NCBI RefSeq assembly: GCF_900112135.1
Contig: NZ_FOLC01000005.1
Coordinates: 124,001 to 188,000, forward strand
Direction of reading: 5' to 3'
Source of the DNA: Collimonas sp. OK412
GTDB lineage: Bacteria > Pseudomonadota > Gammaproteobacteria > Burkholderiales > Burkholderiaceae_D
DNA length: 64,000 nt
Position numbers and translations under genes: made by a program. The notes below the pieces were generated by a model. The model searched no databases and was not told the DNA's origin. It worked only from the letters and a program-made list of their open reading frames with translations. Below, in pieces: positions 36,915-40,693 of this stretch (the first letter of the stretch is position 1; every line of letters starts with the position of its first letter).

Positions 36915-37517
36915 TTATTTCTTACGAAATCGGAATACCGCAAGACTACCACGCCAGTTTGGCAGCACCGAGATCGGCCGGCCATCGTGCAGGGCGACGC
37001 ATTCGAGCACTTCCAGGCCGACTTCATTGGCCAGCTCTTCAAAATCCTTGATGGTGGCGCAGCGCAGGTTGGGCGTGTCATACCATTCGTAAGGCAAGGA
37101 CTTGGACACCGGCATGCGCCCGCGCAACAGCGCTACCCGGTGCGGCCAGTAGGCAAAGTTGGGGAAGGAGACGATTGCTTCGCGGCCGACGCGGGCGATG
37201 TCGCGTAATACTCCTTCAACATTTTTCATCATCTGCAGCGCCGACAGGCACAGCACCGTGTCGAAGGCGTTGTCGGCGAACAGCGTCAATCCGGCTTCCA
37301 TGTCTTGCTGGATCACCGAAACGCCGCGCGCCACGCAGACCGGAATCTTGGCGTCGTCGATTTCGACGCCATAACCCGCGCATTGCTTGTCGGACTGCAG
37401 GTAATCGAGCATGACGCCGTCGCCGCACCCCAGGTCCAGCACCTGCGACTCGCCGCGCACCCAGTGCGCGATAAAGGCCAGGTCGGGCCGCAAGCTGCTC
37501 AATTGATCAAAATTCAT
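36915..37517 (-). CDS. metW: MetW, methionine biosynthesis protein
   Basis: 200-residue class I methyltransferase-like protein that partners MetX in many Proteobacteria. SAM-fold motif I is [15 protein letters not shown] (about 26-40); other family motifs are [20 protein letters not shown] and the hallmark [11 protein letters not shown]. It overlaps the end of metX by 11 bases, showing coupling. Some MetX enzymes need MetW for full activity. Confidence 0.96.
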
Positions 37518-38703
37518 GTACTGCTCCTGCTGCTTCAGTCACTGCGCTCGGCGCCGCCGGCTGTTCCAGCTCCTGCCAGATCCGGTTGTAATATTCGCCC
37601 ACCACGCTCATGTAACGCGGATCGTCCAGCAAAAATGCATCGTGGCCGTGCGGAGCGTCGATCTCGGCGTAGCTGACGCGGCGCTTGTTGTTGACCAGGG
37701 CCTGCACTATTTCACGGCTGCGTTCCGGCGAAAAACGCCAGTCGGTCATGAACGAGACCAGCAGGAACTGCGCCTGGGTCTTGCTCAAGGCGAGGGTCAG
37801 GTCGCCGCCGTATTCCTTGGCCGGATCGAAATAATCGAGGGCCTTGGTGATCAGCAGATAGGTGTTGGCGTCAAAGTATTCGGAAAATTTGTCGCCCTGG
37901 TAGCGCAGGTAGGATTCGATTTCAAAATCGATGCCGAAGCCGAACTGGTAGGCGCCGGAACGCAGGTCGCGGCCGAATTTCTCGGCCATGTCGTCATCCG
38001 ACAGATAGGTGATGTGGCCCACCATGCGCGCCACCCGCAAACCGTTCTTGGGCACCACGCCATGGGCGTAATAATCGCCGCCATGGAAACCGGGATCGGT
38101 CAGGATAGCCTGGCGCGCGACGTCGTTGAAAGCAATGTTCTGCGCCGACAGCTTGGGGGTCGAGGCAATCACCACGCAATGCCGCAGGCGGGTTGGATAC
38201 GCCAGGCTCCAGGCCAGCGCCTGCATGCCGCCCAGCGAACCGCCCATGACGGCGGCGAACTGCCTGATGCCAAGCGCATCGGCCAGGCGTGCTTGCGCTT
38301 GCACCCAGTCTTCCACGGTCACCACCGGGAATTCCGCGCCGTATGGCTTGCCGGTGGCGGCATTGATGTGCATCGGACCGGTCGAACCGAAACAGGAACC
38401 CAGGTTGTTGACGCCGATGACGAAGAACTTGCTGGTGTCGAGCGCCTTGCCCGGCCCCACCATGTTGTCCCACCAGCCGACATTCTTTTCATCGTCCTGG
38501 TACACGCCGGCGACGTGATGCGAGGCGTTCAGGGCGTGGCAGACCAGCACCGCATTCGACTTGTCGGCGTTGAGGCTGCCGTAGGTTTCATACACCAGCG
38601 TGTAATCCGCCAGCAGCGCGCCGCTTTGCAACTGCAGCGGCGTCGCGAAATGCATGGACTGCGGGGCTACTATTCCTTGGGACATGGCTGGTACGGTAGG
38701 CAT
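37507..38703 (-). CDS. metX: Homoserine O-acyltransferase MetX (probably succinyltransferase)
   Basis: Alpha/beta-hydrolase enzyme activating homoserine for methionine synthesis. 398 residues. Catalytic Ser about 156 in [12 protein letters not shown], Asp in [12 protein letters not shown] and His in [11 protein letters not shown]. Betaproteobacterial MetX proteins with MetW are mostly succinyltransferases, which is my inference for the acyl group. Start at ATG 38703; an ATG six codons on (38685) is also possible. Expression is probably controlled by the riboswitch and terminator just upstream. Confidence 0.95.
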
Positions 38704-38726
38704 GAGAGTTGTATGGAAATAAAAAA

Positions 38727-38753
38727 AGCCCGAGAGCTTTCGCTAATCGGGCT
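38727..38753 (-). terminator. Leader terminator before metX
   Basis: On the minus strand AGCCCGA pairs with TCGGGCT and is followed by a run of seven U, 16 bases before the metX start. It lies just downstream of the SAM-II-type aptamer, the expected position of an expression platform. Confidence 0.82.
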
Positions 38754-38770
38754 AAATTCTGGGCTTGTAC

Positions 38771-38874
38771 GTCAAGCTCGCTTTAGCCGTATTTATTTGG
38801 CATCGCCTGGTCCTTGGACCGGGTGATGCCGCGCGCCCGCAAGCTGAGGTGGTGAAACCATTCAAATCGGCGCG
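38771..38874 (-). ncRNA. SAM-II-type riboswitch candidate with extra helices
   Basis: Read on the minus strand: P1 arm CGCGCC (38874-38869), conserved GATTT, a small loop hairpin TGGT-TTC-ACCA, loop strand AGCTTGC (38845-38839), P1 arm GGCGCG, an inserted hairpin with arms GGCATC / GATGCC (38830-38799) containing GGTCC/GGACC, then AAATAAATACGGCTAAA and GCGAGCT (38781-38775). AGCTTGC pairs with GCGAGCT (one G-U) as the SAM-II pseudoknot P2. GATTT after P1 and GCTAAA at P2 are class hallmarks. A terminator and metX follow. The extra helices resemble long-loop SAM-II variants. Confidence 0.75.
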
Positions 38875-38883
38875 ATAAGCTTA

Positions 38884-38912
38884 AGAATAACCAAGTCGGG
38901 GCCTGGCGTCAA
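38884..38912 (-). promoter_or_regulatory. Sigma-70 promoter of metXW
   Basis: On the minus strand TTGACG (38912-38907) and TATTCT (38889-38884) are separated by exactly 17 bases. The predicted start of transcription, about 38877, falls at the 5' edge of the riboswitch candidate. Confidence 0.75.
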
Positions 38913-38938: not shown

Positions 38939-40693
38939 TTATGCGGTCATGCGCATCTGGTTGACTGCCGCCGCAATCGCGCTCGGCTCGGTGTTGCGCA
39001 GGATTTTCCGGGTTTGCAGCGTCAGTTCGTCCAGGTCGCTGTTCAGTACTTCCTGCTTCACCGCCAGCAGCTGCGCCGGATGCATGGAAAATTCCAGCAA
39101 ACCCATGCCCAGCAGCAATCGGGTGAACTTGACGTCGCCCGCCATTTCGCCGCAGACCGACACCGGGATGCCGGCCTTGCGCCCCAGCGCGATCACGGTC
39201 GACAGCAGGAACAGGACCGCCGGGTGCAGCGGATTATACAAATGCGCTACTTCGTGGTCGACGCGGTCGATCGCCAGCGTGTACTGGATCAGGTCATTGG
39301 TGCCGATCGACAGGAAATCCATGCGCTTGATGAACATCGGCAAGGCCAGCGCCGCTGCCGGGATTTCGATCATGGCGCCGGTCTGGATCGCCTCGTCGAA
39401 GGCGACGCCTTCATCGCGCAGCTGCTGCTTGGCTTGCGCGATCATGGCCAGGGTCTGGTCGATCTCGAAAGCATGCGCCAGCATCGGGATCAGCAGCTTG
39501 ACCTTGCCAAAGGCCGAAGCGCGCAAGATTGCCCGCAGCTGCGTCAGGAACAGCTGCGGCTCGGCCAGGCAGTAGCGGATCGCGCGCAGGCCCAGCGCCG
39601 GGTTGAGCGCGGTCTGTTCTTCGGTGTTGATGGGCTTGTCGGCGCCGACGTCCAGCGTGCGGATCGTCACCGGCCGGCCCTTCATCGCCGTTACTGCCTG
39701 CCGGTAGGATTCGAACTGCTCATCCTCGGTCGGCAGCTCGTGCTGGGGGCCGATGCGGCCCATGAACAGGAATTCCGAACGGAACAGGCCGACCCCGCTG
39801 GCGCCGGCATCCATCGCCGCCGCGCAATCGCTGGGCAGTTCAATGTTGGCCAGCAGGCTGATTTCCGTGCCGTCCAGGGTCACCGCGCGGGTCTTCTTGA
39901 TCTTGCCGAGTTTCCTGCGCGAACGCAGCAGGTGCACCTGCCGTTCGCGGTATTGTTTGAGTATCACTGTTGCCGGGTCGACAATGACAACACCGGCGTC
40001 GCCGTCGATGATGATCCAGTCGTCCTGCTTGATCAGGCGCGAAGCGTTGTTCATGCCGACCGCGGCCGGGATATCCAGGCTGCGCGCGACGATCGCGGTA
40101 TGCGAATTCTGGCCGCCGAGGTCGGTGACGAAACCGGCGAACGCGCGGTCGCGGAACTGCAGCATGTCGGCCGGGGAAATGTCATAGGCGACCACCACGA
40201 TATTGGCGAACGAAGCGCCGTCGCTGTCGACTTCCGGCAACCGGGTGGAGGTGCCGGTCAGCACTTTCAGCAGGCGTTCGCCCACCTGCAGCACATCCAT
40301 CTTGCGCTCGCGCAGGTAGGTGTCTTCGATTTCATCGAACTGCGCCGACAATTCGTCGATCTGGGTTACCAGCGCCCACTCGGCGTTGTATTGGCGGTTG
40401 CGGATGATATCGAGCGACATCTCGGCCAGCATCGGGTCCGACAGGATCAGCAGGTGGACGTCGACAAAGGCGCCCAGCTCGGGCGGCGATTCTTTCGGCA
40501 GGTCGGCGCGTATGGTCTGCAGCTCGGTACGCACCCTGGTGACGGCGTTCTGCAAGCGCTGGACTTCGGCTTCGACCTCGGTTTCGCCGATCAGGTAATG
40601 TTTGACGTCCATCGCCGCCGGCGCCAGCAGATGGGCGCGGCCGATCGCGATGCCGCGTGAAACCGGGATGCCGTGTAAGGTGAAAGATGCCAT
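38939..40693 (-). CDS. ptsI: Phosphoenolpyruvate-protein phosphotransferase (EI)
   Basis: Enzyme I of the PTS, taking phosphate from PEP to HPr. 584 residues from ATG 40693 (family start MASFTLHGIPVSRGIAIG); a TTG four codons upstream is disfavoured. The phosphorylated His is in GGQNSHTAIVARS (about 190). The PEP-binding barrel shows LFRSEFLFMGR, TIRTLDVGADKP, GTNDLIQYTLAIDR and VCGEMAGD. It follows ptsH after a 183-base spacer that holds intergenic repeat copy C. No EIIB or EIIC gene is present here. Confidence 0.96.
   Translation of the reverse strand: MASFTLHGIPVSRGIAIGRAHLLAPAAMDVKHYLIGETEVEAEVQRLQNAVTRVRTELQTIRADLPKESPPELGAFVDVHLLILSDPMLAEMSLDIIRNRQYNAEWALVTQIDELSAQFDEIEDTYLRERKMDVLQVGERLLKVLTGTSTRLPEVDSDGASFANIVVVAYDISPADMLQFRDRAFAGFVTDLGGQNSHTAIVARSLDIPAAVGMNNASRLIKQDDWIIIDGDAGVVIVDPATVILKQYRERQVHLLRSRRKLGKIKKTRAVTLDGTEISLLANIELPSDCAAAMDAGASGVGLFRSEFLFMGRIGPQHELPTEDEQFESYRQAVTAMKGRPVTIRTLDVGADKPINTEEQTALNPALGLRAIRYCLAEPQLFLTQLRAILRASAFGKVKLLIPMLAHAFEIDQTLAMIAQAKQQLRDEGVAFDEAIQTGAMIEIPAAALALPMFIKRMDFLSIGTNDLIQYTLAIDRVDHEVAHLYNPLHPAVLFLLSTVIALGRKAGIPVSVCGEMAGDVKFTRLLLGMGLLEFSMHPAQLLAVKQEVLNSDLDELTLQTRKILRNTEPSAIAAAVNQMRMTA

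Follow-up and report, generated by a model that had tools for sequence, protein, structure and literature searches.

The leader upstream of metX in Collimonas sp. OK412 is very likely a SAM-II riboswitch variant that carries a P3 hairpin and controls metXW by transcription termination, which we consider the best explanation of the element. The window, by which we mean the whole 64,000-nucleotide stretch of DNA that was analyzed, contains a 235-base minus-strand gap that separates metX from a ptsI-type gene (end at 38939; assigned by NCBIfam PTS_I_fam), and inside this gap lie a promoter, a leader that folds, and a terminator. The downstream gene encodes homoserine O-succinyltransferase MetX (NCBIfam MetX_succinyl NF047916, 683.6 bits against a cut-off of 560), for which we collected 80 protein relatives at 72-97% identity, the nearest named ones belonging to Collimonas fungivorans (97%) and C. 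humicola (95%). In two of the related loci (L001 and L002), the sole ATG corresponds to the second one in the window, at 38685. The features of the locus are as follows, with RNA letters used for the transcript.

36915 to 37517, minus strand: metW, directly after metX (Pfam MetW PF07021, E 4.8e-59)
37507 to 38703, minus strand: metX, open reading frame beginning at ATG 38703, although ATG 38685 is the likelier start
38721 to 38753, minus strand: intrinsic terminator AGCCCGA..UCGGGCU plus U-tract, read from the sequence (-15.0 kcal/mol isolated)
38750 to 38756, minus strand: antiterminator 3' arm UUUAGCC, complement of GGCUAAA at 38788-38782, overlapping the terminator 5' arm
38777 to 38779, minus strand: P2a 3' strand GAG (covariation)
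38782 to 38787, minus strand: GCUAAA, the P2b 3' strand plus SAM contacts (U47, A48, A49, and A50 in SAM-V numbering)
38789 to 38798, minus strand: A-rich linker AAAUAAAUAC, expected in the P1 minor groove
38799 to 38830, minus strand: P3 insert hairpin GGCAUC...GAUGCC, after P1 and before the A-rich linker
38832 to 38837, minus strand: P1 3' strand GGCGCG (sequence reading and covariation)
38839 to 38842, minus strand: P2b 5' strand UUGC, pairing with G, C, A, and A of GCUAA at 38787-38783
38846 to 38848, minus strand: P2a 5' strand CUC, partner of 38777-38779 (covariation and shuffle test)
38850 to 38860, minus strand: P1-loop insert hairpin TGGT/ACCA
38863 to 38868, minus strand: triple-helix third strand GAUUUG (6-11 in SAM-V numbering, extrapolated from U8-U10; contacts as given in PMC6061858)
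38869 to 38874, minus strand: P1 5' strand CGCGCC (covariation, 109 elements)
38884 to 38912, minus strand: sigma-70-type promoter, TTGACG at 38912-38907, 17 bases, TATTCT at 38889-38884, read from the sequence

An earlier note on this DNA had described the promoter (38912-38884), P1 (38874-38869 with 38837-38832), GATTT immediately 3' of P1, and GGCTAAA near the 3' end (38788-38782), and we found each of these in place, the second-to-last as GATTTG at 38868-38863. Both promoter hexamers and the 17-base spacing are identical in four related loci (L001, L002, L008, and L012), and transcription would start near 38877. The order P1, L1, P2, with the P2 5' strand directly before the P1 3' strand, is that of an H-type pseudoknot. 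The SAM-V structure paper names U8, U9, U10, U19, U20, G21, U47, A48, A49, and A50 as contacting or framing SAM, and its available text calls SAM binding "virtually identical" in SAM-II and SAM-V (PMC6061858); every one of these bases matches in the window. We examined conservation in a wide alignment of 109 elements from 100 sources, picked by hand for spread. U9, U10, UUGC, and U47 to A50 are present in all 109 elements, U8 in 102, and the G and C preceding U47 in 108 (with one gap), an invariance that is partly built in, as a model of the same core was used to find the elements. Each base of the linker AAAU is kept in 107 to 108 of the 109, and the A-minor role we assign to the A-rich linker is taken from SAM-V (PMC6061858). 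Position 18, the partner of A50, is A in SAM-V, whereas it is C in the window, in 102 of the 109 elements, and likewise in the Rfam SAM-II consensus.

The earlier note took the lack of both a covariance-model hit and compensatory changes in the P1 and pseudoknot arms as refuting its reading; Rfam had no hit in the window itself, but such changes were found. Across the 109 elements, which are related by descent so that covariation counts overstate independent events, double changes occurred in five of six P1 pairs (95.4% of cells paired; 30 elements lack the outermost pair) and in two of three P2a pairs in the SAM-II register (75.8% of cells paired). P2b, UUGC/GCUAA, pairs in 100% of cells and is invariant, and it therefore provides no covariation evidence. 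P1 and P2a together gave 91 double-change cells versus 34.0 in shuffled alignments, a value reached by none of 500 shuffles, and slid controls gave 1 to 48.

The pseudoknot had been proposed as AGCTTGC pairing with GCGAGCT. Both strands are there and complementary, but across the 109 elements, UUGC/GCUAA plus CUC/GAG, the SAM-II register, gives the better fit, and we rejected the proposed register on these grounds, even though the separation of the two in the wider set is incomplete. AGCTTGC/GCGAGCT is complete only in some sequences, with 71.2% of cells paired and double changes in three of seven pairs. The shuffle test of P2a covered 95 of the 109 elements, rows that its text patterns failed to place having been dropped; in these 95, the SAM-II register paired at 0.668 versus 0.571 shuffled (0 of 2,000 shuffles reached it), and AGCTTGC/GCGAGCT paired at 0.701 versus 0.685 (3 of 2,000), a much smaller excess. 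Pairing of P2a had z values of 4.4 to 5.6 on the diagonal of the SAM-II register and of -2.3 to 1.9 off it, the latter not clearly above shuffles. Taken as a whole structure with the same P1, AGCTTGC/GCGAGCT was also above all 500 shuffles. In our first alignment (31 of 37 sequences, with the near-duplicates L012, L014, L044, L060, L075, and L078 left out), it performed about as well as the SAM-II register, with 91.7% of cells paired and double changes in two of seven pairs, all in five Burkholderia/Paraburkholderia rows, compared to 79.6% and two of three pairs for P2a. The pseudoknot strands were correctly identified, and the register was most likely wrong. Given that AGCTTGC/GCGAGCT keeps a small excess over shuffles, this pairing may still form without ligand in Oxalobacteraceae.

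Two hairpins are inserted into the core, as the earlier note had described. The nested hairpin GGCATC/GATGCC was recovered at 38830-38799 (P3), and its insert region of 38 bases folds at -21.6 kcal/mol (z -6.1). Inserts of at least 12 bases at the P3 place were present in 28 of the 106 elements measured (rows of the 109 not placed by text patterns were dropped), and all 28 had z values below -1 versus mononucleotide shuffles, with a mean of -3.66. The small hairpin TGGT/ACCA in the P1 loop is also present, at 38860-38850, but it is weak in the window (-1.8 kcal/mol); P1-loop inserts that fold also occur in L003, L140, L007, and L181 (-5.3 kcal/mol in the last), and stronger forms occur in L095 (-6.1 kcal/mol) and L043 (-17.0 kcal/mol). 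According to the available text of PMC6061858, SAM-II usually lacks P3, and SAM-V has in common with the window its core as well as a P3 stem-loop placed after P1 and before the A-rich linker; this stem-loop has 3 base pairs in SAM-V and is much longer, at the same place, in the window. The two differ in that the window has a terminator, whereas SAM-V masks the ribosome site; P2a lies 73 bases (ATG 38703) or 91 bases (ATG 38685) before metX and is followed by the terminator, an arrangement unlike the translational one of SAM-V. P3 is present here, and it is variable at metX among relatives, being absent in L009, L016, and L018, for example; we therefore treat the lack of P3 as a non-essential mark of SAM-II and file the element as a SAM-II variant. 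We infer that both hairpins, P3 and the one in the P1 loop, lie outside the binding site and are inserts that the aptamer tolerates. It is rather unlikely, in our estimation, that the P3-bearing Burkholderiales metX leaders form a distinct SAM-II subclass, with the SAM-II core, P2a, and a much larger SAM-V-style P3, in which the two hairpins would act as a second input (a protein, a partner RNA, or folding-rate control) that tunes the speed of GCUAAA capture before the terminator is made.

The U-tract terminator proposed before metX is present at 38753-38721, although it ends 17 rather than 16 bases before ATG 38703. Given that UUUAGCC overlaps the terminator 5' arm, the antiterminator and terminator states are mutually exclusive, and the isolated antiterminator is predicted at -12.6 kcal/mol compared to -15.0 for the terminator. 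The 7-base complement of GGCUAAA is unexceptional in the window alone, where 5 of 20 shuffles reached it. Among 36 metX leaders, a complement of the GGCUAAA type was found in 27, compared to 3.7 expected from dinucleotide shuffles, and no complement of the tested kind was found in the other nine; a run of at least five T occurs in 25 of the 36. When we searched more generally for the longest complement of the GCTAAA core, the excess was modest (mean of 7.2 versus 6.1), with the longest complement shorter than 7 in 47 of the 109 elements, and the metX-leader test was clearer. The base just before GCTAAA pairs with the downstream partner in 32 of 54 cases versus 22.7 shuffled (18 of 5,000 shuffles reached this), and the second base out had no covariation (13 of 54 versus 13.2 shuffled). 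In the mechanism we propose, GGCUAAA would pair with the downstream UUUAGCC when SAM is scarce, which would block the terminator stem and allow metXW to be transcribed. When SAM is present, P1 and P2 would form the H-type pseudoknot, with SAM held in a major-groove triple helix between GAUUUG and UUGC/GCUAA; GCUAAA would then be locked in the aptamer, UUUAGCC would be free, and the terminator would be built, stopping transcription. In the seven leaders from Burkholderia and Paraburkholderia, the complement is present without a U-run, and its arm lies close to the ribosome site, suggesting that translational control is likely in these leaders.

Both SAM as the ligand and the direction of control are what we infer from these features, and the leader very probably shuts metX off when S-adenosylmethionine is sufficient. 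Riboswitch classes can switch ligand through point changes, and the U8 place is G in 6 of the 109 elements, indicating that variation near the adenine exists. Even so, it is very unlikely that this aptamer has kept its fold and drifted to SAH or another adenosyl compound, given that the window has SAM-type contact bases, among them the two uridines close to the sulfonium that the SAM-V paper credits with rejecting SAH (PMC6061858), and that metX encodes an early pathway step, which would fit feedback by SAM.

Standard model searches did not detect the element. The Rfam search of the window returned no family at gathering, and at E values up to 10 over 601 bases, SAM-II was unlisted and the sole match was anti-hemB (E 6.1). 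The covariance-model check suggested by the earlier note was run with RF00521 (SAM-II, SAM_alpha), SAM-V RF01826, and the SAM-II long loops RF01726, and none of these, nor any other Rfam SAM-family model, matched the window or its genome, the RF00521 cut-off being a detection threshold and not a structural feature. The element shares with RF00521 the H-type pseudoknot, the GAUUUG third strand, the UUGC/GCUAA P2b, P2a, a methionine gene downstream, and a terminator; it differs in its extra P3 and P1-loop hairpins and in going unlisted by the model even at an E value of 10. Of 50 loci that we scanned, 23 have a short loop and 27 a long one (a segment of at least 12 bases); at E up to 1, SAM_alpha was listed in 22 of the former and in none of the latter, the single short-loop miss being L189, whose element precedes metK and belongs to a divergent subtype. 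The SAM_alpha cut-off of 36 was exceeded by four metX leaders from the same order that lack P3 (L164, 42.2 bits; L168, 38.9; L172, 37.3; L130, 36.2), each with metX downstream. Most simply, the Rfam SAM-II model misses the window due to the inserted P3 hairpin, and these two results together indicate that the element is best read as a missed SAM-II, in support of the proposal of a SAM-II-type aptamer with two inserted hairpins before metXW. In the wider class, SAM_alpha matched 105 of 274 genomes at E up to 0.01 (24 over the cut-off) and none of 14 controls, and the sequence GCGCCGATTTGA..CAGCTTGCGGGCGC..ATAAATACNGCTAAAGCG, which is the core of the element in the window, recurs exactly or almost exactly in many of the matches. 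A separate methionine-responsive RNA class that merely resembles SAM-II would account for the failure of the Rfam model to list any of the 27 long-loop members, and a 2014 paper gave the orphan metXZ element as novel, with another second conformation and no class (PMC4239095, available text); this reading is highly improbable, however, given that relatives at the same gene occur with and without P3 and that some of those without it exceed the SAM-II cut-off.

The other proposal, a long-loop SAM-II variant, holds only literally, as the window's genome has no match to RF01726 or RF01826 at E up to 1. RF01726 is described as a SAM-II variant with longer loops from Bacteroidetes and marine sequences (PMC2864571, available text). 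It was over its cut-off in none of 12 genomes, and none of its three weak matches lay at a place matched by our model R1 (described below); at E up to 1, it matched 8 of 14 controls, so its weak matches are noise. SAM-V RF01826 matched none of the 12 genomes at E up to 1, a level at which 3 of 14 controls matched.

The element is widespread. A relative of the 167-base leader is found in another genus (73% identity, E 2.2e-19), and the core GCGCCGATTT..GGGCGC..GCTAAA lies before metX in 36 of the 80 metX loci, which were collected by protein similarity and include one (L015) truncated before any leader. Our covariance model R1, built from 31 sequences including the window with P1 as its only structure, matched 285 of 399 genomes and 129 of 164 genera of the order, which we take to be the Burkholderiales, at E up to 0.01; in the family of the window, it matched 65 of 79 genomes and 35 of 40 genera, and the window's genome has one copy. 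In the window, the position before metXW links the element to a methionine/SAM gene, the regulation of which is predicted. Among the 109 elements, metX is downstream in 34, some of them selected via metX. For ten other elements, whose downstream regions were scanned as 300-residue pieces, the genes following six were metZ, metK (two), metH, metN, and one for a cystathionine-gamma-synthase family protein, three of the six over the curated cut-off.

Several observations were made at other loci. Genomes of the Duganella/Janthinobacterium/Pseudoduganella/Rugamonas type lack the SAM-II element at metX, and another conserved motif, of two hairpins, occurs in 21 of the 80 metX loci (L021, L023, L027, L029, L030, L031, L032, L033, L036, L045, L048, L049, L052, L053, L056, L058, L062, L067, L069, L070, and L071). 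It spans about 100 bases directly before metX and consists of a covarying stem with a loop around CATCCTCGC, then GGCCCGYGGGGCC. Double changes occurred in six of nine pairs of the first stem (18 of the 21 rows aligned; L027, L029, and L031 left out), and Rfam had no match in 16 of these loci. We consider this motif a candidate replacement regulator of metX. A model of it, R2 (Massilia-type leaders), gave weak matches scattered over 59 of 300 genomes, the best at 25.7 bits, and none in three genomes of the same family (G350, G542, and G568). Neither the SAM-II element nor the two-hairpin motif was found in 23 of the 80 metX loci, many of them Massilia and one of them the truncated L015. Divergent SAM-II-type elements precede metK in L189 (by scan) and L190 (by the look of the open reading frame), and a SAH riboswitch lies on the same strand about 1.3 to 1.4 kb downstream of each (55.4 and 53.7 bits, respectively).

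Tandem SAM-II-type elements were observed in nine loci (L162, L169, L176, L177, L184, L175, L155, L210, and L111), in which the first copy has an apparent terminator and a divergent second copy, mostly reading ..TTAA..ACAACTTGC..GCTAAAGCGT, follows at a distance of 18 to 99 bases. Seven of these tandems precede a small open reading frame starting MYDC or MFDC (95 to 112 amino acids, no Pfam match), and a MATE transporter gene comes after this frame in both loci scanned (L162 and L176). Four of the six elements with G at the U8 place are second tandem copies (L176:1639-1710, L155:1393-1463, L177:1358-1432, and L184:1336-1406), and the others are single copies (L123 and L188). In SAM-V, U8 pairs with U47, the partner of the SAM adenine (PMC6061858), and a changed ligand preference or a decoy function is possible for these elements.

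Elements of this type have very probably been seen before under other names. The first author of the 2014 study of metXZ is, we believe, Leyn. The available text of that study reports metXZ from 35 genomes of beta-proteobacteria, in which it lies before metXW or metZ, and proposes a terminator-antiterminator mechanism without a ligand or class; its table scores SAM_alpha only in alpha-proteobacteria (PMC4239095). As published, metXZ has six conserved regions, and its site, host group, and described architecture, including a pseudoknot of conserved regions and a downstream terminator, agree with our element in a comparison by description and not by alignment; what differs is the absence of a ligand or class and another proposed switch (PMC4239095). 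The element type in the window is almost certainly the published orphan metXZ element. Likewise, a Burkholderia small RNA candidate reported in 2012 (Bp2_287, now RF02424) lies upstream of methionine genes in most genomes (PMC3521395), at the same kind of locus and on the opposite strand. In L232, RF02424 scored 107.5 bits on the minus strand (1554-1756; cut-off 70) versus 44.0 bits for R1 on the plus strand, and in 12 genomes, 7 of its 24 places were opposite an R1 place, including the five best, of which the highest scored 107.5 bits; at E up to 1, it matched 6 of 14 controls, never over the cut-off. The strand modeled by RF02424 is probably the wrong one of a riboswitch. That the element is instead a small RNA from the opposite strand is barely credible. 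In its favor, RF02424 was opposite to elements in 16 of 16 matches listed, RT-PCR in Burkholderia detected its founding candidate (PMC3521395), and Bp2_287 is given as expressed in a table of PMC10987360. Against it, the metX strand carries the promoter, the terminator U-tract, and the contact residues alike, the RF02424 model opens with AAAA followed by a GC-rich hairpin, which mirrors a terminator, and RF02424 has no match at the window's own element.

SAM-II in beta-proteobacteria is already mentioned in print (PMC2258182 and PMC2704228), and the class is thus not new there. The excerpts of the Bp2_287 papers PMC6337395 and PMC10987360 contained nothing on SAM-II or methionine, and in the open-licence literature we found neither metXZ nor RF02424 equated with SAM-II, nor a P3-bearing form. 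As far as our searches of that literature reach, the identification of metXZ and of the target of RF02424 as SAM-II, and the P3-bearing variant, are new.

In summary, the outcome is a useful reclassification and not a new kind of system. The orphan metXZ element gains a class and a likely ligand, and our results explain how standard annotation can overlook SAM-II in the Burkholderiales. Given that P3 comes and goes among the metX leaders of related genera, SAM-II and SAM-V are drawn closer together.
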